From: Cupriavidus metallidurans CH34
Lineage (GTDB): Bacteria; Pseudomonadota; Gammaproteobacteria; Burkholderiales; Burkholderiaceae
Length of the DNA stretch: 64,000 nt
Assembly: GCF_000196015.1 (NCBI RefSeq)
Contig: NC_007974.2
Span: 806,001 to 870,000 of the forward strand
Direction: 5' to 3'
The notes below the pieces were generated by a model that had not been told where the DNA came from, made no database searches, and worked only from the letters and a program-made list of their open reading frames with translations. Position numbers and translations under genes: made by a program. Positions 7,173-35,734 of this stretch are shown here, one piece after another (the stretch's first letter is position 1; every line of letters starts with the position of its first letter).

Positions 7173-8503
7173 CAGGCTGCTGAAGTACTAGCCGCATAAA
7201 AGCGAAGCTTCCCTCTGCAAGGCTGATGGGCTCGCTATTTTTCACAATCCGGAAGCTGATCGTCACTTCACCGACTTTTTCGTTGATTTGGCGACCGTTT
7301 CCGGCCTCATTGCCGCGATTACTGCAACTGCGGACGGATTTGTCCCAGCGAACGCATGCGCACGAGGTTGTAGGCGGCCATGCTCAGCACAAACATTTGA
7401 TCGACCTTCTTTAGTCCGCGCACCATCACCTGGCGCATGCGCCCAACGGTCTTGGCCCATCCAAAGCCTTGTTCAATCAGCTTGCGCTTCTGCTGTGAGA
7501 TGGCATAACCCTTGGTGCCTGCAATGGCGTCGGGAACGGCCGAGCGGCGGCCAGAGGTGTTTTGTGCGACGTGCGGCGTCACCTTCAACTCCAGGCAGGC
7601 TTGAATGAACTCGTGCGCGTCGTAGCCCTTGTCCGCACCCACGGTGACTTCCACATTCAGGTCCTCAATCACCTGCCTGGCATCGTTGAGCATGACCTTC
7701 GCGGCCTCGCGCTCGGCGTGTCCGTCCGCATTGGTCACCATGGCGCTCACCACCAGGCCGTGGCGGTTGTCGCTCAGGGTATGACCCATGTAACGCAGTT
7801 CACTGGCGGTTTTGCCCTTGCGGTACAGCTTGGCATCGGGATCGGTTTTGGACTCGTGCGTCTCGTTGCTGCGCTTTTCACCCTTGAAGTCAGCACCGTC
7901 GTTATCGTCTTGGTCGTCGCCATCCTTGCGTACAAAGCTCTTGTGGCCAGCCCACGCCTTAATCAACGTGCCGTCGACGCTGAAGTGCTCGCCCGACAGC
8001 CAGTCCTTCTTCTGCGCGATGGCCAGCACTTCGTTGAAGAAGTCGATCACAGCATCGTGCTTGATCAGCCGTTCCCGGTTCTTGCTGAAGACGCTGGGCA
8101 CCCAGACCACATCATCCATCGCCAGGCCAATGAACCAGCGAAACAGCAAGTTGTAGTGCGTCTGTTCCATGAGCTGGCGCTCCGACCGGACGCTGTAGAG
8201 CACCTGCAGCAGCATGGCCCGCAGCAACTTCTCCGGCGCGATGCTGGGCCGGCCACCCTTGATATCGGCCTCGTACATTTGCGCGAACAGCCGATCCATC
8301 TTCGCCAGCGCCTGGTTCGCCATGGTGCGGATCGCGCGCAGGGGGTGGGACTTCGGCACGAAATCTTCCAGCCGCCGCATGGTGAACAAACTTTCGGTGA
8401 AGGTGTCAGCGCCGCGCATGAACGTGGGATTGTATGGAGTCCTCAGATTAACGATTCAGCAAGTCGTCGCGCTGACGTTCGCTGCCGGTATTTCAGCAGC
8501 CTG
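7173..8503 (-). mobile_element. IS5-family insertion sequence, apparently complete
   Basis: A 1331-bp insertion sequence. The left end reads CAGGCTGCTGAAGTAC and the complement of the right end reads CAGGCTGCTGAAATAC, so the terminal inverted repeats match at 15 of 16 positions. TTAG flanks both ends (7169-7172 and 8504-8507), a 4-bp target duplication of the YTAR type used by IS5-group elements. It carries one intact transposase gene on the minus strand. Intact ends plus a visible target duplication suggest a fairly recent insertion. Confidence 0.88.
7319..8419 (-). CDS. IS5-family DDE transposase
   Basis: A full-length 366-residue transposase. The N-terminal domain includes SHPLRAIRTMANQALAKM, GRPSIAPEKLLRAMLLQ and YNLLFRWFIGL. 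The DDE residues are visible in FSVDGTLIKAWAGHKSF (first Asp), VGADKGYDAHEF (second Asp) and KLIEQGFGWAKTVGRMRQ (Glu). There is no frameshift or stop. It occupies most of the element between the terminal repeats and is probably functional. Confidence 0.93.
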   Translation of the reverse strand: MRGADTFTESLFTMRRLEDFVPKSHPLRAIRTMANQALAKMDRLFAQMYEADIKGGRPSIAPEKLLRAMLLQVLYSVRSERQLMEQTHYNLLFRWFIGLAMDDVVWVPSVFSKNRERLIKHDAVIDFFNEVLAIAQKKDWLSGEHFSVDGTLIKAWAGHKSFVRKDGDDQDDNDGADFKGEKRSNETHESKTDPDAKLYRKGKTASELRYMGHTLSDNRHGLVVSAMVTNADGHAEREAAKVMLNDARQVIEDLNVEVTVGADKGYDAHEFIQACLELKVTPHVAQNTSGRRSAVPDAIAGTKGYAISQQKRKLIEQGFGWAKTVGRMRQVMVRGLKKVDQMFVLSMAAYNLVRMRSLGQIRPQLQ

Positions 8504-8650: not shown

Positions 8651-9433
8651 GCTGTTCTGCACGATAGGCAGGCCCGCTACAGTTCGTCTGAGTCTGCCGA
8701 GGCAAGATAGCGTCCGAGCTCCATATCATGCGTCAGCCCGAGCTTTGCCATGGCAGCGCACTTTTGCACGCTGATGGTTTTCCTGCTTCGGTTAAAACGC
8801 GCCGCGATTTCTCTGAGCGAGAGCCCCTGCGCGAGCAGGCGCAATACCTCTCGCTCACGCGGGCTTAGTCGCTGCAGCGCAGCTTGTGGCGTGCCTCCGT
8901 CGTCCTGGTCGAGGAGATGCGCCAGCGAGGCCGGAGCAACGAACTTCCTGCCCGCAAGGACAACGCGGCAAGCCTCGGCAACGTCCCGAGTACCGCAGGT
9001 TTTCGAGACGAAGGCGGAGGCACCCGCGGCTATCATGTCGCGGACGGCCGGCGGCGAGGCGTTCATAGAGAACACGATCACGGCTACATCGGGACGCATA
9101 CGCTTGATGCGTCCGATGAGTTGCAGCCCGTCACCCGCTTCGTTGAGGGAGAAGTCGGTGATGACAATACCCACTTCTGGATCGTTCAGCGCATTGAGGA
9201 TCTCATTGACACTGGAGGCAGTGACCACCTCCGAGAACTGTCCTATGCGGGCAAGTTCACTGCGGAGGGCGATCACAATGATGGGGTGATCATCGCAGAC
9301 CAGTACTTTGGGGGCTTGGTTCATTCGTGACCCCGCGTTCGAGGCATTGGGCAGTGTGGTCAAACAAATTTAGGCAAGGAGCCGCTGCATCGCTCCGCGC
9401 CTAGTACCATTCACTTGCCATTTCATGCCAGGT
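8651..9433. repeat. Inverted duplication, copy A (783 bp)
   Basis: This block is repeated in opposite orientation at 14241-15023, also 783 bp. Comparing by eye, the central part is almost identical, with one silent change seen in the front half of the gene. Differences cluster at the edges: a 12-bp patch at 9400-9411 (upstream of the gene) with six mismatches against 14263-14274, and several substitutions in the last 150 bp or so around the stop codon. It contains a whole response regulator gene plus its upstream region. Confidence 0.93.
8677..9324 (-). CDS. RcsB-like response regulator, copy A
   Basis: A 215-residue response regulator of the NarL/FixJ class, closest in layout to RcsB. The receiver domain (1-120) has the acidic pair in LVCDDHP, the phosphoacceptor Asp57 in VITDFSL and Lys108 in AFVSKTCG. 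A linker is followed by a LuxR-type helix-turn-helix (about 148-205) with LSPREREVLRLLAQGLSLRE and FNRSRKTISVQK. The start at 9324 is the first ATG; a TTG at 9363 would add 13 residues. Copy B at 14350 encodes the same protein except for the last residue (Leu here, Pro there). No sensor kinase is adjacent; the nearest phosphorelay kinase in the window is at 38140. Confidence 0.92.
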   Translation of the reverse strand: MNQAPKVLVCDDHPIIVIALRSELARIGQFSEVVTASSVNEILNALNDPEVGIVITDFSLNEAGDGLQLIGRIKRMRPDVAVIVFSMNASPPAVRDMIAAGASAFVSKTCGTRDVAEACRVVLAGRKFVAPASLAHLLDQDDGGTPQAALQRLSPREREVLRLLAQGLSLREIAARFNRSRKTISVQKCAAMAKLGLTHDMELGRYLASADSDEL

Positions 9434-9645
9434 GCGACGCAGCTTACTAGGGAGATATTGTCCGGCTGGTGAGGGCGCGGTTCAGTAGGCCGCGGCCTAA
9501 ACTGCAGGCGTTGATGATTAGGCCGCGGCTGATGGTGGAAAAGGACCCTTGCCGATACTCAGGCCCAGCGATGCTGTAGTTGCGATGTCGTCTTCGTCAT
9601 CGCGTCTTCTTGCGCGAGTGATTCGCCAACATGCCGAGGCCCCGG

Positions 9646-9666
9646 AGCCCAGGAATCTCCTGGGCT
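9646..9666 (-). terminator. Hairpin downstream of porin gene
   Basis: A perfect 9-bp stem (AGCCCAGGA / TCCTGGGCT) with a 3-base loop, 22 bases past the stop of the porin at 9689. On the minus strand no clear T-run follows, so intrinsic termination is plausible but unproven. Confidence 0.4.
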
Positions 9667-9688
9667 TATCCGATTTAGTCCCTTGTGC

Positions 9689-10828
9689 TTAGAACTTGTG
9701 GCGAACGCCGACTACCGCACCAAACTGGTTTGCGCCCGGTTGAACACCTTCCGAGTTCGACGAGGTTGCCGAACCCAACTGGTCATTGAAGCCGTTCACG
9801 CCAAGGGTCGACTTGCCGTTGTTCAGGGCGTACGACATCGACGCGTACAGATCGGTCCGCTTCGAAAGTGAGTAATCAGCCAAGGCAACGAATTGCCACG
9901 GGTTACCGGCGTTGGCGTTACGCAGGTTCTGGTAGTAGGCGGCACCTGCCAGTGACAGGGCGGGCGTTACCTGGTAACCCAGACCAGCCCAAGCCAGGTT
10001 CGATGAACCGTTGGCGTGGCTCGGAGTGCCTACCAGAACATCGCCGTTGTAGGCGTGCGCATAGCGGTAGCCAGCGAAGACCTTGGCCTGACCGAACGCG
10101 TACGTACCGGCGATAGCGGCGTGACGGGTCAGTTTGTTAGTTGACAGGGCGGTAGCTTGTGAGCGGTTCGTCTGGTCGTACACGGCACCGACCGAGAACG
10201 GGCCGGCAGCGTAGATCGCGGAGAATGAGTACTCACGGCCGTTGGTGAAGTTTCCCGGAACTTCCTGGTTGTTGTTGTTGAGGCTGTACAGAGCGGACAC
10301 GGTCAGGCCACCGAACGTGCCCATGTACTTGGCGGAGTTGTCTGCTCGCGAGGCGAACCACGGATCCTGCGAAGTGATCGAGTAGCGGCTCGAAATGCTC
10401 ATCGGATCGAAGGCCAAACCGAAGTCAAAGCCAGGGGTGGTGTGACGACCCAGAGTCAGCCGCCCCCACTGATTCTGCAGACCGACGTACGCGGCGCGTC
10501 CAAACAGGCGGCCGCTCTGGCCCATCTTGCCATCGTCAACATTGAATCCGCTTTCCAGCGTGAAGATTCCCTTCAGGCCGCCACCAAGGTCTTCAATGCC
10601 GCGCAGGCCCCAGCGGGAGCCCGACTGATTACCAGACTGAAGCGCAAAAAGGCTTTGACCCTTCGTGCCGGGCTGTACGCCGCCATTCGATGCGGCGGCC
10701 TTGTTCAAGTACTCCACGCCTGCGTCGGCAACACCATAGAGAGTCACGCTCGATTGCGCATAGGCGCTGCTTGCCGCCAGCGAAGCGGCTGCCGAAGTGG
10801 CTGCAATGGCCAGTAGTTTGAACTTCAT
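9689..10828 (-). CDS. Gram-negative porin
   Basis: A complete 379-residue trimeric outer-membrane porin. It has a cleavable signal peptide (MKFKLLAIAATSAAASLAA, cleavage after AYA), the mature start QSSVTLYGVADAGVEY, SGSRWGLRGIEDLGGGLKGI, GRAAYVGLQNQWG and a C-terminal phenylalanine (GVRHKF). A strong ribosome binding site (GGAGGAAG) precedes the ATG. It is divergent from the Bug receptor at 11294, so outer-membrane entry and periplasmic capture of one substrate may be linked. It lies inside the segment bracketed by the inverted repeats. Confidence 0.96.
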   Translation of the reverse strand: MKFKLLAIAATSAAASLAASSAYAQSSVTLYGVADAGVEYLNKAAASNGGVQPGTKGQSLFALQSGNQSGSRWGLRGIEDLGGGLKGIFTLESGFNVDDGKMGQSGRLFGRAAYVGLQNQWGRLTLGRHTTPGFDFGLAFDPMSISSRYSITSQDPWFASRADNSAKYMGTFGGLTVSALYSLNNNNQEVPGNFTNGREYSFSAIYAAGPFSVGAVYDQTNRSQATALSTNKLTRHAAIAGTYAFGQAKVFAGYRYAHAYNGDVLVGTPSHANGSSNLAWAGLGYQVTPALSLAGAAYYQNLRNANAGNPWQFVALADYSLSKRTDLYASMSYALNNGKSTLGVNGFNDQLGSATSSNSEGVQPGANQFGAVVGVRHKF

Positions 10829-11293
10829 TATCTTCCTCCGATTTTAGTAAGAATTCATAACCGCATACAGACTGATCCGATACGCGAGCTGATGATTCTG
10901 ATCCTCGAATCGAAGGTATTCCAAGCACAAATATTTCTATTGTTGGTTAATTGGTTAAGGATGAATATTTAGGCGATGGCCTATTCTTTGCGATCTTCGT
11001 TCTGGAAATAATTCTCAACGAATCCATTGGATGTCTTGCTGTGATCTATCGAATGTTTCGTATTGGATAGATGTCGACACTTTCCCATGATTTGTGATGG
11101 ATTCATAAGGGGCTGCTTTCGGGGAGCCCCTTTCTCTTGCAGTGGAGAGGCGCGGCCGCATTGGCGAGTGAGATGGCCAGCTAGTTTCACTACACGCCTC
11201 ACCATTGCTACGCAAATTCGCTTTTTATAGTCGAACTTCGGCCGGTTCCAGTATCTGGCGATGTTTGAAAAAAACAGAGAAAGAGACACTGCC
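10829..11293. other. Divergent porin/Bug promoter region
   Basis: 465 bases without a convincing gene, clearly AT-richer than its surroundings. It must carry the promoters for the porin (leftward) and the Bug receptor (rightward). Inside it lies a terminator-like hairpin at 11107-11132, which is unexpected because no gene ends there. Confidence 0.5.
11107..11132 (+). terminator. Orphan rho-independent-terminator-like hairpin
   Basis: AAGGGGCT (11107-11114) pairs perfectly with AGCCCCTT (11125-11132) across a 10-base loop and is followed by a T-rich tail (TTTCTCTT, counting the last T of the stem). Read on the plus strand it looks like an intrinsic terminator, about 160 bases before the Bug receptor start. 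It could end a small RNA or act as a leader attenuator. Confidence 0.5.
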
Positions 11294-12298
11294 ATGCGTT
11301 CTTCAACGCTTTATCGTACCTTGGCTGCCTGCGTGGGCATCGTCGTAGCCGGAGTGGTAGCTGCGGCGACTCCGGTGAGTTCGGCTCTTGCCCAATCCGA
11401 CTATCCCAGCAAGCCGATTCGACTGATCGTGCCGTTCCCGCCCGGAGGGGGCACCGACATGATCGCGCGTGCGGTGGCACAGAAGGTCGCTGAGCAGAAC
11501 CGCTGGAATGTAGTCGTCGAGAACCGACCCGGCGCGGGCGGCAACTTGGGTGTGGATGCGGCTGCCAGGGCGACGCCCGATGGCTATACCATCGTCATGG
11601 GGCAGACCAGCAATCTGGCAATCAACCCTACGCTGTATCCCAAGCTTCCCTACAAGCCGTTGGTTGACTTGGCTCCTGTGGCCCTGGTGTCATCGTCACC
11701 AATCGTGATGGTAGCGCCGGCATCGTCGCCATTCAAAAGCTTTGCCGACGTGGTGGCGGCCGCCAAGAAAGCGCCTGATGCGATCACGCTCGGCTTCTCC
11801 GGCAATGGCACCGTGGCTCACCTGGCCGGTGAATTGGCCGAAGACGCGGCGGGCATCAAGCTGCGGCATGTGCCGTACAAAGGCGCGGGGCAGGCCATGA
11901 CCGACGTGATGGGCGGCCAAGTCGATCTGTACATGTCATCTATTCCTACGCTGCTGAGCCATGTGCGTAACGGCAATATGCGCGCCATCGTGGTCACATC
12001 GGCTAAGCGCTCCCATCAGTTGCCTGATACGCCGACACTGGCCGAATCGGGCTACAAGGATCTTGACGCTATCTCTTGGTTCGGCATCCTGGCGCCTGCC
12101 GGCACGCCGGCGCCTATCGTGCAGAAACTCAACCTGGCAATTAACGAGGCGCTGAAGCAACCCGACGTGGCAGAACGGCTGCGTTCAGAAGGCGGTGACG
12201 TGCTCGGCGGCAGCCCTGAGCAGTTCAGCCAATTGCTGAAGACCGAGATCGTGCGCTGGGGCCGGATAGTCAAGAACTCGGGCGCGAGCTTGGACTGA
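11294..12298 (+). CDS. Bug/TctC family periplasmic solute receptor
   Basis: A 334-residue Bug-family binding protein. The start at 11294 is preferred over the in-frame ATG at 11261 because an AGAGAAAGAGA purine stretch precedes it and a normal signal peptide follows (ending SSALAQ). The mature signature is SDYPSKPIRLIVPFPPGGGT, then VVENRPGAGGNLGVDAAA and LPDTPTLAESGYKDLD. It stands upstream of an RraA-like aldolase gene and a 2-hydroxyacid dehydrogenase gene, suggesting uptake of a hydroxy- or oxo-acid used by those enzymes. No membrane transport subunits are nearby. Confidence 0.94.
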   Translation: MRSSTLYRTLAACVGIVVAGVVAAATPVSSALAQSDYPSKPIRLIVPFPPGGGTDMIARAVAQKVAEQNRWNVVVENRPGAGGNLGVDAAARATPDGYTIVMGQTSNLAINPTLYPKLPYKPLVDLAPVALVSSSPIVMVAPASSPFKSFADVVAAAKKAPDAITLGFSGNGTVAHLAGELAEDAAGIKLRHVPYKGAGQAMTDVMGGQVDLYMSSIPTLLSHVRNGNMRAIVVTSAKRSHQLPDTPTLAESGYKDLDAISWFGILAPAGTPAPIVQKLNLAINEALKQPDVAERLRSEGGDVLGGSPEQFSQLLKTEIVRWGRIVKNSGASLD

Positions 12299-12452
12299 TC
12301 CTACTGTGTGTGGTGCCGGCCCGTTGTTGTCCGACGCAGGGTTGGGCGGAGGAACAACTGGCAGGGCATTGCCAAGAGTCAGCCCGCGGCATCCACGAAG
12401 TATTCCGCTTTAGTCATATCCCTTTGTTTGTCCCGTCATACTGGAGTCGTCC

Positions 12453-13151
12453 ATGAGCACCCAAGCCAAATTGTCCTCCGCGATTCGTCGCGACTTTGTT
12501 CGCGTCTCGCCTGAGTTGGTTGAGCGGGCATCAAAGTTCCAGGCCGCCATCCTGGCCGACGTGGTCGGCCGTCGCGGCACGCTGAACGCGCGCGTGCAGG
12601 GCCTGTCGTCCACCATGAAGGTGTGCGGTCCTGCGCTGACCATCGAGGTGCGTCCCGGTGACAACCTGATGTTTCATGTGGGCCTGGCTATCGCCAAACC
12701 TGGCGATGTCATCGTAGTGGATGGCAAGGGTGATCAGACGGCAGCGCTGTGTGGCGAAATCATGGCCACGCAGGCACAGGCCTCAGGTGTGGCGGGCTTC
12801 GTGATCGACGCCGCAGTGCGCGACTCGCACGAACTGGCCCATGGCCAATTCCCGGTGTTCTCGGCCGGCACCAACCCGTGCGGCCCCACGAAGGCTATCG
12901 GTGGCCTGGTGAACTGGCCGGCCTCGGTGGCTGGCGTTGCGGTCAATCCGGGCGATCTTATCGTTGGCGATGCTGACGGCGTGGTCGTGATCCCGCGCGA
13001 AGAGGTACCCGTGATTCTGGAACTGGCGCAGAAAAAGGTCGATGCCGAAGCCAAGCGCATCGCTGCCATCAAGGCTGGCGATCTGCGACCGGGCTGGCTC
13101 GACAAGGAACTGCGTGCAGCTGGCGTGCTGGCCGAAGGCGAATCGCTGTGA
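12453..13151 (+). CDS. RraA-family protein (4-hydroxy-2-oxoacid aldolase-like)
   Basis: A 232-residue RraA/MenG-fold protein. Members with the catalytic motifs are divalent-metal 4-hydroxy-4-methyl-2-oxoglutarate / 4-carboxy-4-hydroxy-2-oxoadipate aldolases that release pyruvate; others inhibit RNase E. Seen here: AAILADVVGRRGTL, GDVIVVDGKGD, LCGEIMATQAQASGVAGF and the Arg-Asp pair in VIDAAVRDSHEL that contributes to the metal/pyruvate site. The C-terminal extension and the operon context (Bug receptor before, dehydrogenase overlapping after) favour a catabolic aldolase. The substrate is inferred only. Confidence 0.88.
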   Translation: MSTQAKLSSAIRRDFVRVSPELVERASKFQAAILADVVGRRGTLNARVQGLSSTMKVCGPALTIEVRPGDNLMFHVGLAIAKPGDVIVVDGKGDQTAALCGEIMATQAQASGVAGFVIDAAVRDSHELAHGQFPVFSAGTNPCGPTKAIGGLVNWPASVAGVAVNPGDLIVGDADGVVVIPREEVPVILELAQKKVDAEAKRIAAIKAGDLRPGWLDKELRAAGVLAEGESL

Positions 13152-14092
13152 GCGTGAAGAAGCAACCGGTGGTGCTGGTCACGGGCAATGATCTGGCACC
13201 CCAGGCACTCGAACTGCTCAAGGACTTCGAGGTTCGTTTCGCCGGCAAATCGTGTACCGAAGACGTCTTGCTGGCACTGGCAAAGGAGACCGATCCTGTT
13301 GCCATCATCGTGCGCTATGGCAGGATCGGCGCCAGCATCATGGATGCTGCGCCGTCGCTGAAGGTGATCTCGAAGCATGGCAGCGGTATCGACGTAATCG
13401 ACCAGAAGGCCGCAGCCGAACGCGGCATCGCAGTGAAGGCCGCGGTTGGTGCCAATGCCGCCGCCGTTGCTGAGCACGCTTGGGCGCTGATTCTGGCCTG
13501 TGCCAAGTCCGTGCCGCATCTGAACGACCGCATGCGTGAGGGCTATTGGGACAAATCGATCCATAAGAGCATCGAACTGAACGGCCGCACGCTGGGTATC
13601 GTCGGTCTTGGCGAAATCGGTCGCCGCGTAGCGGTGACCGGTGTGGTGTTGGGTATGCGCGTGATCGCATTCGACCCCTATGCGAATGCAGCGCCGGATG
13701 GCGTCGAGCTAGTCAACGATCTGCACGATATCTACCGGAATGCGGATGTGGTGTCGCTGCATTGCCCGCTGACGGAGAGCAATCGCGGCATGCTGCATCG
13801 CGAGACGCTGGGCCTATTCAAGAACGGCGCGATCCTGATTAATACCGCACGCGGTGGCCTGGTCGACGAACCGGCATTGGCCGAGGCCCTCACGAACGGC
13901 ATGCTCTATGCGGCTGGCCTGGACAGCTTCGCGGTCGAGCCGATGACCGCCCCGCATCCGCTCCAGCAGATCCCGAACGCCATCCTGACGCCGCACATTG
14001 GCGGCGTCAGCGATGCGGCCTACGTGAGCATGGGCGTAGGCGCGGCAACGAATGTGCTGGCTGTGCTGGGCAGCGTCACGGCAGATGGCTGA
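13148..14092 (+). CDS. D-isomer-specific 2-hydroxyacid dehydrogenase (SerA/PGDH-like)
   Basis: A 314-residue NAD-dependent D-2-hydroxyacid dehydrogenase. The nucleotide-binding motif is GIVGLGEIGRRVA. The catalytic Arg is in INTARGGLVDE, the Glu follows in the DSFAVEP region, and the His is in LTPHIGGVSDAA. It lacks the C-terminal ACT domain of biosynthetic SerA, so a catabolic role is likelier. It starts with GTG inside the stop of the RraA-like gene (GTGA overlap), so the two are co-translated. Together they could oxidise or reduce a hydroxyacid and cleave the related oxoacid. Confidence 0.9.
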   Translation: MSVKKQPVVLVTGNDLAPQALELLKDFEVRFAGKSCTEDVLLALAKETDPVAIIVRYGRIGASIMDAAPSLKVISKHGSGIDVIDQKAAAERGIAVKAAVGANAAAVAEHAWALILACAKSVPHLNDRMREGYWDKSIHKSIELNGRTLGIVGLGEIGRRVAVTGVVLGMRVIAFDPYANAAPDGVELVNDLHDIYRNADVVSLHCPLTESNRGMLHRETLGLFKNGAILINTARGGLVDEPALAEALTNGMLYAAGLDSFAVEPMTAPHPLQQIPNAILTPHIGGVSDAAYVSMGVGAATNVLAVLGSVTADG

Positions 14093-14240
14093 CTTCGGGG
14101 TACGGAGTTTGCTGACCTGACTGTAGCCGACGCTACACGAGGCGCTGGGATCATTCTCCGATGCTGGCACCTGCCGGCCGCAAGGTGCTAATCCATCACG
14201 TTCCCTAACAGGGTATGCGCGTGCTGGTTGGTTACGCTGA

Positions 14241-15023
14241 ACCTGGCATGAAATGGCAAGTGCCTGGCACGGGTCGCGGAGCGATGCAGCGGCTCCTTGC
14301 CTAAATTTGTTTGACCACACTGCCCAATGCCTCGAACGCGGGGTCACGAATGAACCAAGCCCCCAAAGTACTGGTCTGCGATGATCACCCCATCATTGTG
14401 ATTGCCCTCCGCAGTGAACTTGCCCGCATAGGACAGTTCTCGGAGGTGGTCACTGCCTCCAGTGTCAATGAGATCCTCAATGCGCTGAACGATCCAGAAG
14501 TGGGTATTGTCATCACCGACTTCTCCCTCAACGAAGCGGGTGACGGGCTGCAACTCATCGGACGCATCAAGCGTATGCGTCCCGATGTAGCCGTGATCGT
14601 GTTCTCTATGAACGCCTCGCCGCCGGCCGTCCGCGACATGATAGCCGCGGGTGCCTCCGCCTTCGTCTCGAAAACCTGCGGTACTCGGGACGTTGCCGAG
14701 GCTTGCCGCGTTGTCCTTGCGGGCAGGAAGTTCGTTGCTCCGGCCTCGCTGGCGCATCTCCTCGACCAGGACGACGGAGGCACGCCACAAGCTGCGCTGC
14801 AGCGACTAAGCCCGCGTGAGCGAGAGGTATTGCGCCTGCTCGCGCAGGGGCTCTCGCTCAGAGAAATCGCGGCGCGTTTTAACCGAAGCAGGAAAACCAT
14901 CAGCGTGCAGAAGTGCGCTGCCATGGCAAAGCTCGGGCTGACGCATGATATGGAGCTCGGCCGCTATCTTGCCTCGGCGGACTCAGACGAGCCGTAGCAG
15001 GCCTGCTTATCGCGCAGAACAGC
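14241..15023. repeat. Inverted duplication, copy B (783 bp)
   Basis: Mirror copy of 8651-9433. The match starts at ACCTGGCATG (14241) and ends at GCAGAACAGC (15014-15023); sequence outside these points is unrelated. The two copies face outward and enclose 14241 minus 9433, about 4.8 kb. Homologous recombination between them would invert that segment without loss. No transposase or terminal repeats bound the duplicated block itself. Confidence 0.93.
14350..14997 (+). CDS. RcsB-like response regulator, copy B
   Basis: A 215-residue NarL/FixJ-class response regulator, identical in protein sequence to copy A (8677-9324) except that the last residue is Pro instead of Leu. Asp57 is the predicted phosphoacceptor, and the LuxR-type DNA-binding domain contains SRKTISVQKCAAMAKLGL, very like RcsB (SIKTISSQKKSAMMKLGV) but with a Cys after QK. 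A TTG at 14311 is an alternative upstream start. The two genes differ most in a 12-bp patch about 80 bp upstream of the ATG, so they may be expressed differently. The partner kinase is not adjacent. Confidence 0.92.
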   Translation: MNQAPKVLVCDDHPIIVIALRSELARIGQFSEVVTASSVNEILNALNDPEVGIVITDFSLNEAGDGLQLIGRIKRMRPDVAVIVFSMNASPPAVRDMIAAGASAFVSKTCGTRDVAEACRVVLAGRKFVAPASLAHLLDQDDGGTPQAALQRLSPREREVLRLLAQGLSLREIAARFNRSRKTISVQKCAAMAKLGLTHDMELGRYLASADSDEP

Positions 15024-16360: not shown

Positions 16361-17422
16361 TCATATCATTGCCACCAGATCCCGGCGCGCCTGACGATAC
16401 TCAGGGCTATTGATGCCCTGTGATATCGCTGCATGAAGCAGTGCCTTCGCCTCTCGCGCGCAGTCACTGTTGGGATCGGAGATGGCATCCAGTTCTGCTT
16501 TCAGGTTATCAACTTGCAATGCCATACGCCTATGAGGCTGTTCGTTGCCACGCGACACGCTCCCTGCCATCAGGTGTAGCTGCTCCTCGAACATGAGCAG
16601 GCAAGCCTGCCTGCCCAGCGACGTACTCGGATGGCCGGAATCGCGTCGTTCAGTTTGCTTGCGCAACCACGGCATAACATCGCCGGCCGGCATGGGGCGG
16701 GCGATACCATAGCCTTGCGCGGCGTCGACGCCGAGCAACCGGACTGCCTCCAGCAAATCGGCGGACTCCACACCCTCCACCACGACCTGCTTGCCAAGCC
16801 CGTGTCCGAGGCGCGTCAGTAGAAAAATGAAACGCAGCGCTTCGGTCTTGTCACCGTCAGCAAGTCTGACGATCCCGCGGTCCAGCTTAATCCAGTCGAA
16901 CGGAAACTGACGCAGCCTCGTCAGGCTGCTGTAGCCGGCACCGAGGTCATCTTCCGCCAGTTGAACTCCCAGCGCCTTGAACTTCCGCATCGCGATGGCA
17001 ATGCTCCCCTCCGGCACCTCGCCGCTCTCAAGCAATTCGAGCGTTAACGTGCCAGGCGGACACCGGCTCGCGACCAGCGCTGCGCACGTCGCTTCGTAGT
17101 AGCGGTCATCGCCCAGCGCCTCAGGCGGCAGGTTGACAGAGAGCCCGAGTGTCACTCCCTGGCGCACCCATGCGGTGCGCTGTCGCAATGCCTGCTCCAG
17201 GCCCTTCGAATAAAGCTCAAGAAGCGTTTCACCTGACAGGGCGGGCAAGAACTCGCCCGGCATCAGCAGACAGTTGCCGTCGCGAAGGCGAGCCAATGCC
17301 TCGACCTTGATGACATTGCCCGATTTGAGCCCGACGATGGGCTGGTAGTGCATTTCAAGCCCGCCGTCTTGCAGCAATGCAGTCACCCGATTGCGGGCGA
17401 TGTACGGTGGCGGGGTGGTCAC
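16361..17422 (-). CDS. EAL-domain protein (cyclic-di-GMP phosphodiesterase-like)
   Basis: A 353-residue protein with an EAL domain at about residues 12-245 and a C-terminal tail of about 100 residues of unknown type. The signature appears as KVEALARLRDG; other conserved parts are LGLSVNLPPEAL, LELLESGEVPE, EDDLGAGYSSLTRL, FDWIKLDRGIV and VVVEGVES. The key metal and general-base positions appear present, so enzymatic activity against c-di-GMP is plausible. There is no membrane segment or GGDEF domain. The start is a GTG at 17422 that overlaps the stop of a small upstream frame (17419-17898). Chaperone-usher fimbriae are often c-di-GMP-controlled, but any link to the fimbrial locus at 30.6 kb is inference. 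Confidence 0.88.
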   Translation of the reverse strand: MTTPPPYIARNRVTALLQDGGLEMHYQPIVGLKSGNVIKVEALARLRDGNCLLMPGEFLPALSGETLLELYSKGLEQALRQRTAWVRQGVTLGLSVNLPPEALGDDRYYEATCAALVASRCPPGTLTLELLESGEVPEGSIAIAMRKFKALGVQLAEDDLGAGYSSLTRLRQFPFDWIKLDRGIVRLADGDKTEALRFIFLLTRLGHGLGKQVVVEGVESADLLEAVRLLGVDAAQGYGIARPMPAGDVMPWLRKQTERRDSGHPSTSLGRQACLLMFEEQLHLMAGSVSRGNEQPHRRMALQVDNLKAELDAISDPNSDCAREAKALLHAAISQGINSPEYRQARRDLVAMI

Positions 17423-19984: not shown

Positions 19985-22639
19985 TTATGACAGCTGGTGC
20001 AGCACGAAGCGCATCATTCCGCCAGCACGCCAGACCTTGAACTCGTTTGCCGTGTCAATCCGGCAATCGAGCTCCAACACGACGGAAGACCCGTCAGCGC
20101 GGCGTAGGGTGGCCCGTACGGTTGCACCCGGGCGCGCTTGCTCGTCGATCGCTTCAATGCCGAACGTCTCCGTGCCGTCGAGGCCCAGGGTTTTGCGCGT
20201 GACACCGGATGGAAACTCGAGCGGTAGCACACCCATCATGAGCAGGTTGGAGCGATGGATGCGCTCGAAGCTCTCGGCAATGACTGCACGCACGCCAAGC
20301 AAGTTCGTACCTTTGGCGGCCCAGTCCCGTGACGAACCCGTACCGTACTCGCGGCCGGCGATGATCAACAGAGGCACGCCCTGCGCCGCATACCTTGTCG
20401 CTGCGTCATGGATTGGCATGATCTCGCCTCCCGGCAGGCACTTCGTCTGGCCGCCGAGCACGCCAGGGACCAGCTCGTTACTGAGTCGGATGTTGGCAAA
20501 GGTGCCGCGTACCATGACCTCGTGGTTGGCGCGCCGGGAACCATATGCATTGAAATCGACGGGCTTGACGCCGTGGTCGCGCAGGTACAAGCCAGCCGGG
20601 CTGTCGGCTGGGATGTTGCCGACGGGCGAAATGTGGTCGGTGGTCGTGCTGTCGCCGAGCATCAGCAGGATTCGTGCGTCCACGATATCTTCCACAGGCG
20701 CGGTGGCACTGCCGTCGCAGTGATCGAGGAACGGTGGCTTGCGGATGTACGTACTGCTGGAGTCCCACGGGAACAGCGCCGATGATGGCGCTTCAAGTGC
20801 GCGCCATGCGGGACTACCGTCGAACAGCTGGCTGTACTGGGTCTCGAACAGGTCAGGGGTCAAGACGGTTCTGAGAACGTTCTGCACCTCTGCGTCCGTC
20901 GGCCAAATCTCGTGGAGGTAGACCGGCTGGCCGTCGTTACCGTTGCCCAGCGACTCACGCGTCAGATCAACCTGAATGTTGCCGGCGAGCGCATAGGCGA
21001 CAACGAGCGGTGGTGACATCAGGTAGTTGGCGCGGGCCATCGGATGAATGCGCGCCTCGAAGTTGCGGTTGCCGGACAACACCGCAGTGACGACGATGTT
21101 CTCGTCTCGAATCTGCTGCTCGACCGCCTCATCGAGCTGGCCCGAGTTCCCGCCACAGGTGGCGCAACCATAGCCGGCAACGTGAAAGCCCAGCGCGTCC
21201 AGGTCCGCCTGCAAGCCGCTGGCTTCCAGATACGCGCCGACCACGCGTGAACCCGGCGTCAACGACGTCTTGGTCCATGGGCGCGCTTGCAGTCCGCGTG
21301 CGCGGGCCTTGCGTGCCAGCAGGCCTGCGGCAATCATGACCGCGGGATTGGAGGTGTTTGTGCAGCTCGTGATAGCGGCAATCGCCACGGCGCCGTCGGA
21401 AAGCGTTTCCCGCGCAGGGGCTGCCGACGGAAAGGCCGCGCGAAAGCTGTCGCCGATGGCGTCCAGTTCGACACGGTCCTGAGGGCGTTTCGGACCCGCG
21501 GCACACGGACGGACGCTCGACAGGTCGAACTCGAGCACGCTGCTGTACTCGGGTTCCCTCGCGTCAGCCGAACGCCACAGGCCTTGCGCCCTGGCATAGG
21601 CTTCGACAAGTGCCACCTGCGCAGCATCCCGGCCGCTTGCTGCCAGGTAACGCAGGGTTTCCGCGTCGATCGGGAAGAAAGCTGCGGTGGAACCGTACTC
21701 GGGTGCCATGTTGGCAATCGTGGCGCGGTCCGTCACGGCAAGCGCCGCGAGCGACGGCCCGAAGAACTCGACCAGGGTATCGACCACGTTGAATGCGCGC
21801 AAGCGCTGCGTGAGCGTGAGGACGAGGTCGGTGGCCGTCACGCCGGCCTGCAGACTGCCGCTGAGGCGAACACCCACAACGCGGCGCAGCGGCACAGTCA
21901 TTGGTAGCCCGAGCATTGCCGCTTCGGCTTCAATGCCACCCACGCCCCAGCCGAGCACGCCGATGCCGTTGACCATGGTGCTATGGCTGTCAGTGCCGAC
22001 CATCGTGTCGGCAAAGGCGACAACATGTAAGCCCGCTTGCTGAGTACAGACGACCCCGGCGATATGCTCAAGGTTGATCTGGTGCAGTATTCCATTGCCA
22101 GGCGGTACGACGCGCACATTGCTCAGTGCCGCGGTGGCCCATTTCGCCAGCCGGTAACGCTCCGTGTTGCGCTCGAATTCGCGGCCAAGATTGTAGGTCA
22201 GCGCCCCCGGGTGACCTGCCTGGTCCACGATGAGCGAATGATCAATGACGAGATCGACAGGAATCCGTGGGTTGATCCGCGTGGCGGGCTGGCCAAGATC
22301 AGCTATCGCATCGCGCAACGCTGCCAGGTCAACTAACGCTGGAATCCCCGTGTAGTCCTGCATCAGCACACGAGCAGGATGGAACGGTACGGGGATCACA
22401 TCGCCAGAACTCGGGTGCCAGGCAAGCAAGCGGCAGAAGTCCGCCTCTTCCACGTCGTTGGTCCCGATGTGGCGCAACACATTCTCGGCCAGCACGCGCA
22501 GGCAGTACGGCAGTCTGGCGATGGCCTCCGCACCGCCCGCAGTTGCGGAGGCAATGCTGTAGATATGCGTGCCAGAGTGCACTGGGGCACGGGATTCAAC
22601 CGGTTCAAGCGCCTTGAGCGCAGTCTCTCTGATGGACAC
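19985..22639 (-). CDS. acnA: Aconitate hydratase A
   Basis: A roughly 884-residue AcnA/IRP-type aconitase that interconverts citrate and isocitrate through cis-aconitate, using a [4Fe-4S] cluster. The cluster cysteines are seen in AITSCTNTSNPAVM and in GYGCATCGGNSGQL. Other motifs are GTDSHSTMVNGIGVLGWGVGG, SGNRNFEARIHP and, in the swivel domain, AGREYGTGSSRDWAAKGTNL. The GTG at 22639 has AAGGAA upstream; a further GTG at 22669 would add ten residues. It faces away from an alpha/beta hydrolase and Bug receptor, so it may be a substrate-specific extra aconitase serving citrate-like compounds. The main TCA-cycle copy would lie elsewhere. Confidence 0.94.
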   Translation of the reverse strand: MSIRETALKALEPVESRAPVHSGTHIYSIASATAGGAEAIARLPYCLRVLAENVLRHIGTNDVEEADFCRLLAWHPSSGDVIPVPFHPARVLMQDYTGIPALVDLAALRDAIADLGQPATRINPRIPVDLVIDHSLIVDQAGHPGALTYNLGREFERNTERYRLAKWATAALSNVRVVPPGNGILHQINLEHIAGVVCTQQAGLHVVAFADTMVGTDSHSTMVNGIGVLGWGVGGIEAEAAMLGLPMTVPLRRVVGVRLSGSLQAGVTATDLVLTLTQRLRAFNVVDTLVEFFGPSLAALAVTDRATIANMAPEYGSTAAFFPIDAETLRYLAASGRDAAQVALVEAYARAQGLWRSADAREPEYSSVLEFDLSSVRPCAAGPKRPQDRVELDAIGDSFRAAFPSAAPARETLSDGAVAIAAITSCTNTSNPAVMIAAGLLARKARARGLQARPWTKTSLTPGSRVVGAYLEASGLQADLDALGFHVAGYGCATCGGNSGQLDEAVEQQIRDENIVVTAVLSGNRNFEARIHPMARANYLMSPPLVVAYALAGNIQVDLTRESLGNGNDGQPVYLHEIWPTDAEVQNVLRTVLTPDLFETQYSQLFDGSPAWRALEAPSSALFPWDSSSTYIRKPPFLDHCDGSATAPVEDIVDARILLMLGDSTTTDHISPVGNIPADSPAGLYLRDHGVKPVDFNAYGSRRANHEVMVRGTFANIRLSNELVPGVLGGQTKCLPGGEIMPIHDAATRYAAQGVPLLIIAGREYGTGSSRDWAAKGTNLLGVRAVIAESFERIHRSNLLMMGVLPLEFPSGVTRKTLGLDGTETFGIEAIDEQARPGATVRATLRRADGSSVVLELDCRIDTANEFKVWRAGGMMRFVLHQLS

Positions 22640-22860
22640 GTTGACGTTCCTTGCGCCGTCCGCCGGCACTACTGTAAGCGTGCCGCCACGATAAGGAGGT
22701 TCAACAAGCGTCTCAAGGCAATTTGGAACAGTCTTGACGATCTAGTAGGACTGCCGTCAAAGCGCAGCCCATGCGCAACGATCCGCCGGACGCTGCCGCA
22801 AGCGTGGAAGGATGCAGCTCCGATGTCCACTGGCACCTCTGCTCCGCCCACAGTTCGAGG

Positions 22861-30641: not shown

Positions 30642-31169
30642 ATGAAAAAACTCCTACTCTCCACGCTGGTTGTGTCCTCGCTCGGCCTAGCCTCGCAGTT
30701 TGCAGCCGCTGCCGACGGCACCATCACCTTCAACGGTCAGGTCACGTCCAATACCTGCACTATCAATGGCGGCACTCCTGACTTCACCGTCACGCTGCCG
30801 ACCGTAGCGGCCGGTACCTTGAGCGCATCGGGCAATACCGCAGGCCGTACGTCGTTCAACATCGCGCTGACCAGCTGCACGGGCAGTAGCGCACACACCT
30901 ACTTCGAAGCGGGCCCGACGACCGATTCCGCAGGCCGCCTGATGCTGACCACCGGCAGTACCGCCTCCAACGTGCAGATCCAGCTGCTCAACGGCAGTGA
31001 CCAGACGTTGGTCAAGGCCGGCTTTGCCGATGCGTCGCAGAACTCGCTATCGGCGAGCATCAGCGGGGGGTCGGCCACGCTGACGTACTACGCCGAGTAC
31101 TACGCCACAGGCGCGGCCGGTGCAGGGTCGGCCAACTCCAGCGTGATGTACACCATCGCCTACAACTAA
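30642..31169 (+). CDS. Type 1-like fimbrial major pilin
   Basis: A 175-residue chaperone-usher pilin. Signal peptide MKKLLLSTLVVSSLGLASQF, cleavage near AAA. The mature domain has the usual disulfide pair (Cys in NTCTINGG and in LTSCTGSS), the pilin strand pattern FNIALTSCTG, and a C-terminal donor-strand-accepting end YTIAYN with the penultimate Tyr two before the last residue. It is the first gene of the chaperone/usher/adhesin operon and likely builds the fibre shaft. Confidence 0.94.
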   Translation: MKKLLLSTLVVSSLGLASQFAAAADGTITFNGQVTSNTCTINGGTPDFTVTLPTVAAGTLSASGNTAGRTSFNIALTSCTGSSAHTYFEAGPTTDSAGRLMLTTGSTASNVQIQLLNGSDQTLVKAGFADASQNSLSASISGGSATLTYYAEYYATGAAGAGSANSSVMYTIAYN

Positions 31170-31240
31170 GCCGGAAACGGATGGCGGAATCTCACAGTTC
31201 TGCCATCCACCTGCTTTGGATTTGACCCTGTCTTCCTGAA

Positions 31241-31993
31241 ATGATCATGACACGCACGCGGATGATTCGATATGTCTGGACCACGACTTTGCTGCTGGTA
31301 CTCGGTCTGGCCGTTGTGTTGCAGGCCGAGGCATCGGTGGTCCTTGCCGGCACGCGCGTGATTTTTAACGCCAATGAGCGTGAGACGACGGTCAGGCTGA
31401 GCAACGAGGGCAAGGTGCCAGCGCTCACGCAGGTGTGGCTGGACAAGGGCGATCCCAAAGCGGCACCCTCGGAGATCTCCGTGCCGTTCACGGTAACACC
31501 GCCGGTATCGCGCATCGACCCTGGTAAGGGGCAGACGCTGCGGATCTTTTATACCGGTGAGGCGCTGCCGCGGGACAAGGAATCGGTCTTCTGGCTGAAC
31601 GTGCTGGAGATTCCGCCCGAAGCCAGTGGGGAGGCCAACAAGCTGCAACTGGCCTTCCGCACGCGCATCAAGCTCTTCTTCCGGCCGGCCGGGCTGGCCG
31701 GCACGGCGCAGGATGCGCCAGCCAAGACCGAGTGGCGGTTGCTGCCGGGCGGCAAGCAGGTGCAGGTTCGCAATCCAACGCCGTACTTCATCTCGTTCTC
31801 TGCTTTCGAGATCGAGGGCAATGGCAAGTCGGTGAAATTCGATGATGGCGGCATGGTCGGCCCCGGAGACACACAGGTGTTTGCGCTGAACACCGCTGCG
31901 ACTCCCGCGCCCGGCCTGAAGGTTCACTACCACGCCATCAGCGACTTTGGTGGCGCCATTGACGGAGAGGCCGCGCTCGCCGTCACTCCATGA
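31241..31993 (+). CDS. Periplasmic fimbrial chaperone (PapD/FimC-like)
   Basis: A 250-residue PapD-family chaperone. An N-terminal signal segment is followed by two immunoglobulin-like domains. Signature parts: GTRVIFNANERETTVRLSNE, the proline-rich RIDPGKGQTLRIFYTG, and LPRDKESVFWLNVLEIPP. The Arg and Lys residues that anchor subunit C-termini are plausibly in GTR and in the NKLQLAFRTRIKLFFRP strand. It delivers pilin subunits to the usher at 32107. The first Met is at 31241; a Met eight residues in is an alternative. Confidence 0.94.
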   Translation: MIMTRTRMIRYVWTTTLLLVLGLAVVLQAEASVVLAGTRVIFNANERETTVRLSNEGKVPALTQVWLDKGDPKAAPSEISVPFTVTPPVSRIDPGKGQTLRIFYTGEALPRDKESVFWLNVLEIPPEASGEANKLQLAFRTRIKLFFRPAGLAGTAQDAPAKTEWRLLPGGKQVQVRNPTPYFISFSAFEIEGNGKSVKFDDGGMVGPGDTQVFALNTAATPAPGLKVHYHAISDFGGAIDGEAALAVTP

Positions 31994-32106
31994 TGCTCTC
32001 GTCGGCTGCCTAGGGCAGCCCCTTTCCAGACTCCTTCCTTTGTGGGCAAGACCCCGGTCTGCCGATCAGGGCAGCAGTCTGTCCGCTGTTTCTATCTGAT
32101 TCCCGA

Positions 32107-34659
32107 ATGCGTCAGTCATCTCCAACTCTCCCAGTGCGCCGTCAGATCAGTCTGGCTGCGTGTCTGCTGGTAGCCAGCGCGGCCGCCATGGCCGCCGACG
32201 GCGGGAGCCTGGTGGCTGAGGCGAAGTTCAGCAGCATGTTTCTGCGCCAGTCACCCGGCGAGCAGATCGATCTGAGCCGCTTCAACCGGGGAAACGCGGC
32301 ACTGGCCGGCACTTACCGCGCCGACCTGTATGTCAACCAGACCTGGATCGGCCGCGCCGACGTGACGCTGCGCGCCGTCGACGGGAATGGCAGTAATGTC
32401 CAACCGTGCTTTGACCGGGCGCTTCTCGAGCGCATGGGGGTGGATCTGACCAAGCTCAAGCCGCAGGCCAGCGCACGCCTGGAGGGCGAGGGGGCTTGCG
32501 TCGCGTTGCCGGAGATCATCGAAGATGCAACGGCAACCTTTGATAATGGCGAGCAGCGCCTGGACGTGAGCGTGCCGCAGGCGAACATGTCGCGCCAGGC
32601 CCGCGGCTATGTGGATCCGAAGTACTGGGACGAAGGCATCAACGCCGCGCGTTTGCAGTACAACGCCAATGTGTATCACAGCGACAGCCAGGGCATCGCT
32701 TCGACCCAGGGTTACCTGGGTCTGGACGCCGGCGTGAACATCGGCGCCTGGCGTTTTCATCATCGGGGAAACTTCACACACGACCAGCAGACTGGTAATC
32801 ACTACCAGAGCGTGCAGACGAACTTGCAACGCTCGATCGTGCCGCTCAAGAGTCAGCTAGTGATTGGCGAGGCCTTCACCGATGGGTCGCTGTTCGACAG
32901 CGTGGGCTTCCGTGGCGTGCAGCTGGCCAGCGATGACCGCATGTATCCCGAGTCGCAGCGCGGTTATGCGCCGATCGTACGTGGCATTGCCCAGAGCAAC
33001 GCGCGGGTGCAGATCCGCCAGAATGGCAACATCCTCTATGACACCACGGTTTCTGCCGGTCCGTTCGAGATCAACGATCTCTATCCGACTGGCTACGGCG
33101 GTGACCTGGAAGTCAGCGTCACCGAGGCCGACGGCAGCGTGCATGTCTCGCGTGTGCCCTACGCGGCCGCCGTCAACGCGCTGCGCCCCGGTGTCACGCG
33201 CTATAGCGTCACGGCGGGCCAGTACCGCAATCCGAGCGTTCATATCTCGCCGCTCCTGCTGCAGGGCACGGTACAGCACGGTTTCACCAATCTCTTCACC
33301 GGCTACGGAGGCTTCGTGGCATCGCCTCACTACATCGCCGGCCTGTTGGGGGCAGCGCTGAACACCGACTATGGCGCCTTCGGCGCGGACATCACCCATG
33401 CCACCACGTGGCTGGTTAATGAGCCCAGCCGCAGTGGCCAGAGCGTGCGCCTTTCCTACAGCAAGCTGGTGCAGCCGACCAACACCAACCTTACGCTGGC
33501 CGCTTACCGTTACTCCAGCGGAGGCTATCTGGGTCTGGCCGACGCGATGAACCTGCGGGACCTGGATGAACGCGGCATGGCCTCTGCCATGAGTGGCATC
33601 CAGCGCGGTAGGTTCCAGGTCACTGTCAACCAGAACCTCAGGCAGGGCTGGGGCAACTTCTATCTGTCGGGTTCTGTGCAGGACTACTGGAACCGCAATG
33701 GCCGCGATACCCAGCTCCAGGCTGGGTACAACAACAGCTACAAGCGTATCAACTACGGCGTCTCGGTCTCACGCCAGCTCAACGTCACGACCAACAAGTG
33801 GGACAACCGCGTGATGCTCAACGTGGGCATCCCGCTGGGCAAGAGTCCGCGCGCGCCGTATTCGATGACCAGCCTGCAGCAGGATTCCTCGGGCAGCACC
33901 AGTCTGCACGAAACGGTGACGGGCACGCTTGGCAGGGACAACGCCGTGGCCTACGGTATCAACGTGGGCCGCAACAGCGGCAATGGGGCGGCCAGCACCA
34001 GCGTAGGTGGCAATGTGTCCTATGTATCGCCGGTGACGACGCTCAGCGCGAGTGCGAGCAGGAGCAGCAATTACACGCAGATGAGCGCAGGGCTGGCCGG
34101 CGGCATCGTGGCGTACGCGGGGGGCGTGGCGTTCACACCGAGCCTGGGCGATACGGTGGCGGTCGTGGAGGCCAAGGATGCGGCCGGCGCGCGGCTGACC
34201 AACGGCAGCGGCCTGCGCGTGGATCCTTGGGGCCATGCGGTGGTATCGAACCTGACGCCGTTTGCGCGCAATCAGGTCGAGATTGATCCACAGGGACTGC
34301 CGATGAATGTGGAGTTGAAGTCGACCATGCAGCAGGTGGCGCCGACCGCCGGGGCCATCGTGAAGCTGAAGTTCGACACCGAGAACGCCGGCCGCATGGC
34401 GATCCTCGAGGTCAGGCGTGCTGATGGCAAGCCGTTGCCGTTTGGGGCCGAGGTGCGGGACGCGGGTGGCCAGCCTGTGGGCACGGTGGGTCAGGGCGGG
34501 CGCATCATCGCGCGCGGGCTCAAGACCGACAGCGGCACCCTCAGCGTGGCGCTGGGGGAGGACGCAGCCAAATCATGCCAACTGCGCTACCAGTTGCCTC
34601 AGGAGCGGAACGACCGCCCCGCTTCGGTGGCCCTGATGCAGGCGACGTGCGCGGAATGA
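32107..34659 (+). CDS. Fimbrial outer-membrane usher (FimD/PapC-like)
   Basis: An 850-residue outer-membrane usher that recruits chaperone-subunit complexes and secretes the fibre. After the signal peptide (ends AAAMA) come the N-terminal periplasmic domain (FNRGNAALAGTYRADLYVNQ), a 24-strand barrel with the plug (PIVRGIAQSNARVQIRQNG, NDLYPTGYGGDLEVSVTEADG), and two C-terminal domains ending with the disulfide pair (SCQLRYQLP and ATCAE). The length is typical. It forms the assembly platform for the pilin and tip subunit on either side. Confidence 0.96.
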   Translation: MRQSSPTLPVRRQISLAACLLVASAAAMAADGGSLVAEAKFSSMFLRQSPGEQIDLSRFNRGNAALAGTYRADLYVNQTWIGRADVTLRAVDGNGSNVQPCFDRALLERMGVDLTKLKPQASARLEGEGACVALPEIIEDATATFDNGEQRLDVSVPQANMSRQARGYVDPKYWDEGINAARLQYNANVYHSDSQGIASTQGYLGLDAGVNIGAWRFHHRGNFTHDQQTGNHYQSVQTNLQRSIVPLKSQLVIGEAFTDGSLFDSVGFRGVQLASDDRMYPESQRGYAPIVRGIAQSNARVQIRQNGNILYDTTVSAGPFEINDLYPTGYGGDLEVSVTEADGSVHVSRVPYAAAVNALRPGVTRYSVTAGQYRNPSVHISPLLLQGTVQHGFTNLFTGYGGFVASPHYIAGLLGAALNTDYGAFGADITHATTWLVNEPSRSGQSVRLSYSKLVQPTNTNLTLAAYRYSSGGYLGLADAMNLRDLDERGMASAMSGIQRGRFQVTVNQNLRQGWGNFYLSGSVQDYWNRNGRDTQLQAGYNNSYKRINYGVSVSRQLNVTTNKWDNRVMLNVGIPLGKSPRAPYSMTSLQQDSSGSTSLHETVTGTLGRDNAVAYGINVGRNSGNGAASTSVGGNVSYVSPVTTLSASASRSSNYTQMSAGLAGGIVAYAGGVAFTPSLGDTVAVVEAKDAAGARLTNGSGLRVDPWGHAVVSNLTPFARNQVEIDPQGLPMNVELKSTMQQVAPTAGAIVKLKFDTENAGRMAILEVRRADGKPLPFGAEVRDAGGQPVGTVGQGGRIIARGLKTDSGTLSVALGEDAAKSCQLRYQLPQERNDRPASVALMQATCAE

Positions 34660-34723
34660 GGATCAAGTCAATCGTGACAGATCAGATCATGAAACCCGCT
34701 TGGAACCAATTGCGATTGAGAGG

Positions 34724-35734
34724 ATGAACGTGACGTATAGAACGATCAAAGCTGCACTCCGGTGGTTTGTGCTGCCGGTCTTGCTGGCCCTCGGCGTGAA
34801 CCATGGAGCCCTTGCCGCGTGCACAGTAACGACCGCCAATCCGGATTACATCTACACGCTACCCAGCACCCTTACTGTGGCTCGCAACGCACCGGTGGGT
34901 ACGGTGATCCTTAGCTACGCCCCCCCGGGACAGAACAACCCTACGGCCTCTGGCACCTGCCCCGTGACGGCATATGCGGTCGATGCCATGGCCGGCTCAT
35001 GGACCACGACGTCTGTCGCGGATGTGTACGCCACCAATGTCCCTGGCATCGGTATCAAGGTCCTCGGGAAAGCCAGCAATCACCCAGTACCACTACTCCC
35101 TACGGTGTACCAATGGTCCGGTAGCGCCACCGGACCTTTCAGCGGCTATTGGGACAGCTTTGGGTATCAGCTCGTCGTTACCGGGCCAGTTTCCCCAGGG
35201 ACGCTCAGTTTTGCGAGTCCTGTGGCCAGTATGTGGCTGTCGACTTCCACCACCGCGCTCGTGGATGCGGCGGTCGTCACCAACCTGCAGATCAACGGCA
35301 CCACAAACATTGTGGCGCGTGCATGTACCACGCCCGATGTGACTGTCAATCTCGGAAATCACCTGTCGTCGGAATTCTCTGGCGTGGGCTCGAAGACCTC
35401 GTCGACGAGTTTCAACATTGCGCTGAATGGCTGCCCGTCCGGGCTGAACACGATCCAATACCAGATCGATCCGGTAACGTCGATCGTGTCGGGTACCGGC
35501 AATACGGTGGTGGCCCTGAATAGCGGCTCGACGGCCAACCGAGTTGGCGTCCAGTTGCTCGACGGGAATGGCAACCCGCTGGCCTTGTCCTCGCCCATCA
35601 CGTTTAGCGGATATAGCAGCAGCACCGGCGGCGACTACACGATTCCACTGAAGGCCAGGTACTATCAGATCGATACACCCGTTGGGCCGGGTTCTGCCAA
35701 TACATCGATGATATTTACGATGACCTATCAATGA
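34724..35734 (+). CDS. Fimbrial tip adhesin-type subunit
   Basis: A 336-residue two-domain fimbrial subunit. Signal peptide (LRWFVLPVLLALGVNHGALA), then an N-terminal domain of about 160 residues with no close family that I recognise and two Cys (AACTVTT, SGTCPVTAY), probably the receptor-binding lectin-like part. The C-terminal pilin domain (about 190-336) starts ARACTTPDVTVNLG and ends MIFTMTYQ. Tip adhesins have this layout. GAGAGGA is better spaced for a GTG at 34730 than for the ATG at 34724, so the start is uncertain by two codons. Confidence 0.87.
   Translation: MNVTYRTIKAALRWFVLPVLLALGVNHGALAACTVTTANPDYIYTLPSTLTVARNAPVGTVILSYAPPGQNNPTASGTCPVTAYAVDAMAGSWTTTSVADVYATNVPGIGIKVLGKASNHPVPLLPTVYQWSGSATGPFSGYWDSFGYQLVVTGPVSPGTLSFASPVASMWLSTSTTALVDAAVVTNLQINGTTNIVARACTTPDVTVNLGNHLSSEFSGVGSKTSSTSFNIALNGCPSGLNTIQYQIDPVTSIVSGTGNTVVALNSGSTANRVGVQLLDGNGNPLALSSPITFSGYSSSTGGDYTIPLKARYYQIDTPVGPGSANTSMIFTMTYQ

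Follow-up and report, generated by a model that had tools for sequence, protein, structure and literature searches.

An orphan RcsB/FimZ-like response regulator gene in inverted duplicate on the Cupriavidus metallidurans CH34 chromid, probably homogenised by recombination

Fimbriae are among the functions controlled by the BvgAS, EvgAS and RocSA phosphorelays. In the sap system of Campylobacter fetus, inversions arise through homologous recombination between inverted gene copies, and switches driven by RecA need no dedicated recombinase. The locus analysed here lies on the chromid CHR2 of C. metallidurans CH34, a contig of 2,580,084 bp within a four-contig genome of 6,913,352 bp, and was studied in a stretch of 64,000 nucleotides (the window). 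It holds two inverted copies of a response regulator gene, and for this otherwise orphan regulator of a model metal-resistant bacterium we propose a probable partner kinase.

A scan of the 64-kb window for inverted repeats of length at least 60 returned a single pair (8651-9450 and 14224-15023), 97% identical and 4773 nt apart. Ungapped comparison of the two 800-bp sequences gave 23 mismatches, 8 of which fell within the innermost 17 bp. The 783-bp arms that remain (8651-9433 and 14241-15023) differ at 15 positions and are 98% identical overall. The initial annotation had described two near-identical inverted blocks of 783 bp, and the concentration of mismatches immediately inward of them shows that it had drawn the arm boundaries correctly. 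The features of the repeat and its surroundings are as follows.

8651 to 9433, minus strand: left arm, in which the regulator gene reads leftwards (repeat scan, ungapped comparison)
8677 to 9324, minus strand: RR_L, an RcsB/FimZ-like NarL-family response regulator of 215 amino acids from ATG, last residue L (open reading frame and Pfam; similarity taken from the right copy)
9689 to 10828, minus strand: Porin_4 porin (Pfam)
11261 to 12298, plus strand: TctC/Bug solute receptor (Pfam)
12453 to 13151, plus strand: RraA-like aldolase (Pfam, NCBIfam)
13148 to 14092, plus strand: D-2-hydroxyacid dehydrogenase (Pfam, NCBIfam)
14241 to 15023, plus strand: right arm, in which the regulator gene reads rightwards (repeat scan, ungapped comparison)
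14244 to 14271, plus strand: weak operator candidate upstream of RR_R, made up of three TGGCA words spaced by about 10-11 bp (pattern search)
14350 to 14997, plus strand: RR_R, otherwise the same protein as RR_L, last residue P (open reading frame, structure and NCBIfam similarity)
14404 to 14909 (partner 8765-9270), no strand: 506-bp mismatch-free core, a candidate conversion tract (ungapped comparison)
16361 to 17422, minus strand: EAL-domain phosphodiesterase-like gene facing RR_R (Pfam, NCBIfam)

A search of the whole genome found two copies of the arm and no third. Neither a target duplication nor a mobile element was seen by eye directly at the arm ends. A second C. metallidurans assembly, FDAARGOS_675, showed 0 differences over window positions 1-25500 and contained both arms in the same orientation. 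The FDAARGOS_675 record in a plasmid collection matched 10.2 kb at 100%, and the two genomes are probably one strain. At 9484-9531, just inside the left arm, a palindromic word of the TAGGCCGCGG type occurs in two near copies; by eye none was seen at the right arm.

Either arm contains a complete, outward-pointing open reading frame for the regulator (8677-9363 on the minus strand and 14311-14997 on the plus strand), with 228 codons from a TTG; we think that translation starts at the ATG at 9324 and 14350, giving 215 amino acids. Pfam assigned Response_reg at 67.1 bits (cut-off 30.2) and GerE at 49.1 bits (cut-off 23.5), the domain pair of NarL/FixJ-type regulators, and the earlier statement that each arm bears a whole response regulator gene was thereby confirmed. 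The closest solved structures were RcsB chains (E 1.2e-32). Like RcsB, the protein consists over nearly its full length of a receiver and a GerE helix-turn-helix domain. Unlike RcsB, it scored 130.2 bits with the RcsB equivalog NF008098 of NCBIfam, below the cut-off of 235, and no kinase gene adjoins it in the scanned part of the window. The second-best NCBIfam model, FimZ, gave 95 against a cut-off of 271. The RR_L and RR_R proteins differ solely in the last residue (L/P); the coding differences between the arms comprise five silent third-position changes and the one that alters this residue. Two metagenomic proteins end in the same ways, P0001 in DEP like RR_R and P0002 in DEL like RR_L, and judged by these sequences they might be the respective orthologues.

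Each arm includes about 110 bp of DNA upstream of its regulator gene. Two of the three TGGCA words are kept in the left arm, and the site reaches into the zone where the upstream sequences of the arms diverge (14263-14274). The window contained 3 matches to this pattern against 0.91 expected from 200 simulated sequences, all from the one duplicated site, so the candidate was not significant and was set aside. Between 8400 and 15400, 0 sigma70-like promoters were found against 2.4 expected, and terminator-like sites showed no excess (5 against 5.9 expected). A tblastn search across the complete window at E 10 detected no remnant of a regulator gene between the porin and Bug genes.

The 15 mismatches sit at the ends of the arms: a group of six spans 12 bp ahead of the gene (14263-14274), one lies at 14403 and eight fall at 14910-15013. 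Random placement of 15 sites gave a clean run of at least 506 bp in 0 of 200000 trials. With the upstream cluster counted once (10 sites) such a run occurred in 63 of 200000, and with the five third-position sites alone a comparable run occurred in 584 of 200000. Selection on the protein cannot explain why silent changes are missing from the core, and recombination between the copies therefore accounts for the pattern most simply. Two imported copies combined into a mosaic would look no different from conversion.

The four genes between the arms, namely the porin, Bug receptor, RraA-like aldolase and dehydrogenase, are those given in the initial annotation. The top NCBIfam models for the aldolase, PRK06201 and 4-carboxy-4-hydroxy-2-oxoadipate aldolase, both remained below their cut-offs. 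Among the matches listed from the 59 other genomes of the genus, the nearest regulator outside CH34 was 47% identical (G006), followed by relatives at 44-46% in G034, G002, G030, G055 and G041. At this level of identity the 59 genomes offer no orthologous pair of arms against which gene order could be compared, as the initial annotation had suggested. G000, G006, G034 and G002 passed E 1e-44 in a search of 398 genomes of the family. The genome-contig scan, from which near relatives of the window genome may be left out, returned 3 distant loci only (24-40%), and no relative was found in viral contigs. The plasmid collection gave 27 records at E 1e-25, one of at least 99% identity (FDAARGOS_675) and 26 below 60%.

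At five of the six nearest regulator loci a porin gene, its product 72-73% identical to the window porin, follows immediately on the 3' side of the regulator gene; the 20 kb examined around the G006 regulator contained no such porin. The order differs in CH34, where the porin is 5' of RR_L. The aldolase-dehydrogenase pair is common: of 60 genus genomes, CH34 included, 36 match it at the DNA level (E 1e-100). At six examined loci the two proteins are 93-94% and 79-84% identical, with Bug genes on either side and no match to the regulator. The left flank of the repeat has matches of 72-75% identity in 10 of the 60 genomes (again including CH34) and the right flank in 20 of 60, mostly within the second porin; the flanks are not conserved as a block. 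The CH34 module thus brings together units that stand apart in the relatives examined. At loci L057 and L069, regulator homologues also have EAL matches (33-34% identity), at distances of about 10 kb and 5 kb. L069 (G000:C4:1627000-1646999), a second locus of the same genome as the window, has two hybrid kinases flanking a regulator of RcsB type that is 42% identical to that of the arms; the kinases have Hpt matches, one of them below the cut-off.

Further along the window, 30642-42501 is occupied by chaperone-usher fimbrial genes and, immediately after them, two histidine kinase genes; no gene for a response regulator adjoins this group.

30642 to 35734, plus strand: fimbrial genes for FimA, chaperone, usher and adhesin, adjacent to the kinases (Pfam)
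35982 to 38027, plus strand: second histidine kinase with HAMP, HisKA and HATPase domains (Pfam)
38128 to 42501, plus strand: BvgS/EvgS-like hybrid kinase with two SBP_bac_3, PAS, HisKA, HATPase and REC domains, likely partner of the regulator (Pfam)

A tblastn search with the regulator found the two arms and, weakly, the receiver of the hybrid kinase itself; no regulator gene was found beside the window kinases. The hybrid kinase carries SBP_bac_3 together with REC in this neighbourhood, and the NCBIfam EvgS model scored 259.6 against a cut-off of 1995 bits. The core of the second kinase is 62% identical to it, and a direct DNA repeat (37227-37377 and 40591-40741; 74%) arises from the homologous cores of the tandem kinases.

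In G006 the regulator gene lies about 1 kb from that of a hybrid kinase, with a 119-amino-acid open reading frame between them. The G006 kinase matched 38128-42501 best in CH34, at 61% (next by score 36%), and the second window kinase at 52% over a shorter part; in the reverse search the window hybrid kinase matched the G006 kinase at 60% (next 34%). The G006 regulator in turn matched both arms at 48% (next 40%). Judged by score, the best hits are thus mutual for the regulator as well as for the kinase. The kinase-REC part is common to the two hybrid kinases and the periplasmic part is not. The C-terminus of the window hybrid kinase resembles the small G006 reading frame beside regulator and kinase (blastp E 7.7e-14), neither having a Pfam HPt match. 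Similar kinases were found at four further loci. In G017 and G025 a regulator gene immediately adjoins that of the kinase, the G025 locus also having a partial usher (62.5% identical), and the G021 locus combines a regulator (30%), a porin (52%) and two kinases within 11 kb; no regulator gene was detected at E 1e-8 in the 12 kb examined at the G018 locus.

These reciprocal best hits and linked loci support, without proving, a split BvgAS/EvgAS-like relay tied to fimbriae and porin. The twin regulators probably act as output for the BvgS/EvgS-like kinases encoded next to the fimbrial genes, 21-23 kb from the right copy. Another CH34 kinase (C4:1226561-1230433) is 46% identical to the window hybrid kinase and by its sequence could serve the arm regulator instead.

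The aconitase gene at 19985-22669 is taken here to be Rmet_4240 and the fimbrial genes to be Rmet_4250-64; if this assignment of our own holds, the tags of the regulator genes lie somewhat below Rmet_4240. PMC13192273 reports CH34 derivatives with deletions of Rmet_4208-4462 and of Rmet_4208-4497 except transposons. By the assigned tags these deletions would include the regulator locus, which is thus probably dispensable. The inverted repeat is not described in the accessible portions of PMC2864759, PMC6210171, PMC6266692, PMC13192273, PMC11647585, PMC9045368 and PMC7019866. The main texts of PMC13192273, PMC7019866 and PMC6266692 do not use the word "inversion" (0 occurrences each); PMC6210171 has it once, in a reference title, and PMC2864759 has it 4 times, the accessible passages being about large inversions and Tn6050. 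In CH34 the name BvgSA has been given to a different locus, Rmet_5710-5714 (PMC2864759).

The insertion sequence beside the left arm bears on how the duplication arose.

7173 to 8503, minus strand: ISRme1 copy of 1331 bp, IS5 family, with a TTAG duplication on both sides (genome search; IS table of PMC2864759)

The repeat had been said to be bounded by no transposase. An IS5-family transposase reading frame (7319-8419) does lie within this element, whose end is 147 bp outside the left arm, and the statement needs correction to that extent. The arm itself is untouched and no ISRme1 is found at the right arm, 7173-8503 being the only copy in the region. Given this proximity, and the rearrangements driven by insertion sequences and transposons that are described for CH34 in PMC2864759 and PMC6210171, ISRme1 might be thought to have created the duplication. 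We regard this as extremely unlikely, as the copy is complete at either end and flanked by a TTAG duplication of its own, the right arm has no counterpart, and the genome copies, 4 of 4, are 1331 bp long. All four have 4-bp duplications, and two lie on each of two large contigs, a distribution with which the IS table excerpted from PMC2864759 agrees. Its own duplication and the likeness of the other copies make 7173-8503 most likely an independent insertion. A plain recent inverted duplication with no later exchange, its end mismatches coming from imprecise ends or short imports, would accord with the 98% identity over 783 bp and with arm ends at which no target duplication or mobile element was seen by eye. 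It is nevertheless rather improbable, since clustered mismatches that include third positions are hard to obtain by even divergence. Better matched to the pattern, and in our judgement probable, is an inverted duplication of an orphan regulator that was homogenised by recombination and serves as output of the BvgS/EvgS-like kinases, inversion of the module being a by-product and not a switch. One RcsB/FimZ-type gene of the chromid would have been duplicated inversely, so that its copies enclose the porin gene and a small catabolic operon. The twins would first have diverged, and recombination would then have made their cores identical again, either by gene conversion or by a crossover, in which case the module would have been inverted as well. 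The outcome would be one regulator in two copies, each behind a different upstream region.

The initial annotation had gone further and proposed a regulator-borne inversion switch, in which recombination between the arms would flip the 4.8-kb module intact and swap the flanking sequence that each regulator copy joins. Driven by RecA, such a switch would re-pair the regulator upstream regions with the other flank and set two heritable expression states. Its geometry holds in silico: inversion between the arms flips the module intact with all four genes wholly inside, leaves both regulator proteins and frames unchanged, and exchanges the diverged upstream zone (6 changes in 12 bp) and the operon 5' of each regulator. 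The length and near-identity of the arms and their mismatch pattern also suggest recombination. The locus has one orientation in both assemblies, which are probably one strain; the two proteins are the same except at their final position; a Pfam scan of 33 window reading frames (the window has 101 of at least 150 amino acids) detected no site-specific recombinase; and no orthologous twin arms are seen in the 59 other genus genomes, with the best regulator at 47% among the matches listed. We therefore consider a switch highly unlikely; what survives of the proposal is the inverted twins around an intact module and their recombination-like mismatch pattern. There is likewise only a slight chance of a slow, RecA-driven swap of control, in which inversions would exchange the regulator upstream regions and the 5' porin or aldolase operon; if true, the dose of a regulator resembling BvgA, acting on porin and fimbriae, would come under a different input with each inversion. 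One published resequencing study of CH34 (PMC13192273) mapped reads of 2 x 150 and 2 x 300 bp to the reference. By our own reasoning, short reads mapped in this way would hardly reveal a flip between 783-bp arms. Under the homogenised duplication that we prefer, RecA-type inversion of the module would be possible in principle as a by-product.

The locus resembles the BvgAS, EvgAS and RocSA systems in that a hybrid kinase with periplasmic SBP_bac_3, PAS, HisKA and REC domains is encoded beside usher fimbriae, and in that the orphan regulator lies on the same chromid stretch and forms mutual best hits with the linked regulator-kinase pair of G006. Unlike in those systems, the CH34 regulator gene is duplicated and stands 21-23 kb from the kinases. 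What it has in common with the sap locus of C. fetus is a DNA segment enclosed by homologous gene copies in inverted orientation; unlike sap, it has no known swapped promoter or expression locus, and no second orientation was seen in two assemblies. The identical core and diverged ends of the arms resemble those of gene conversion between duplicated bacterial genes. The duplication is of an unusual but not unprecedented kind, its conversion footprint being probable, and it suggests how recombination can keep an inverted regulator duplication identical.
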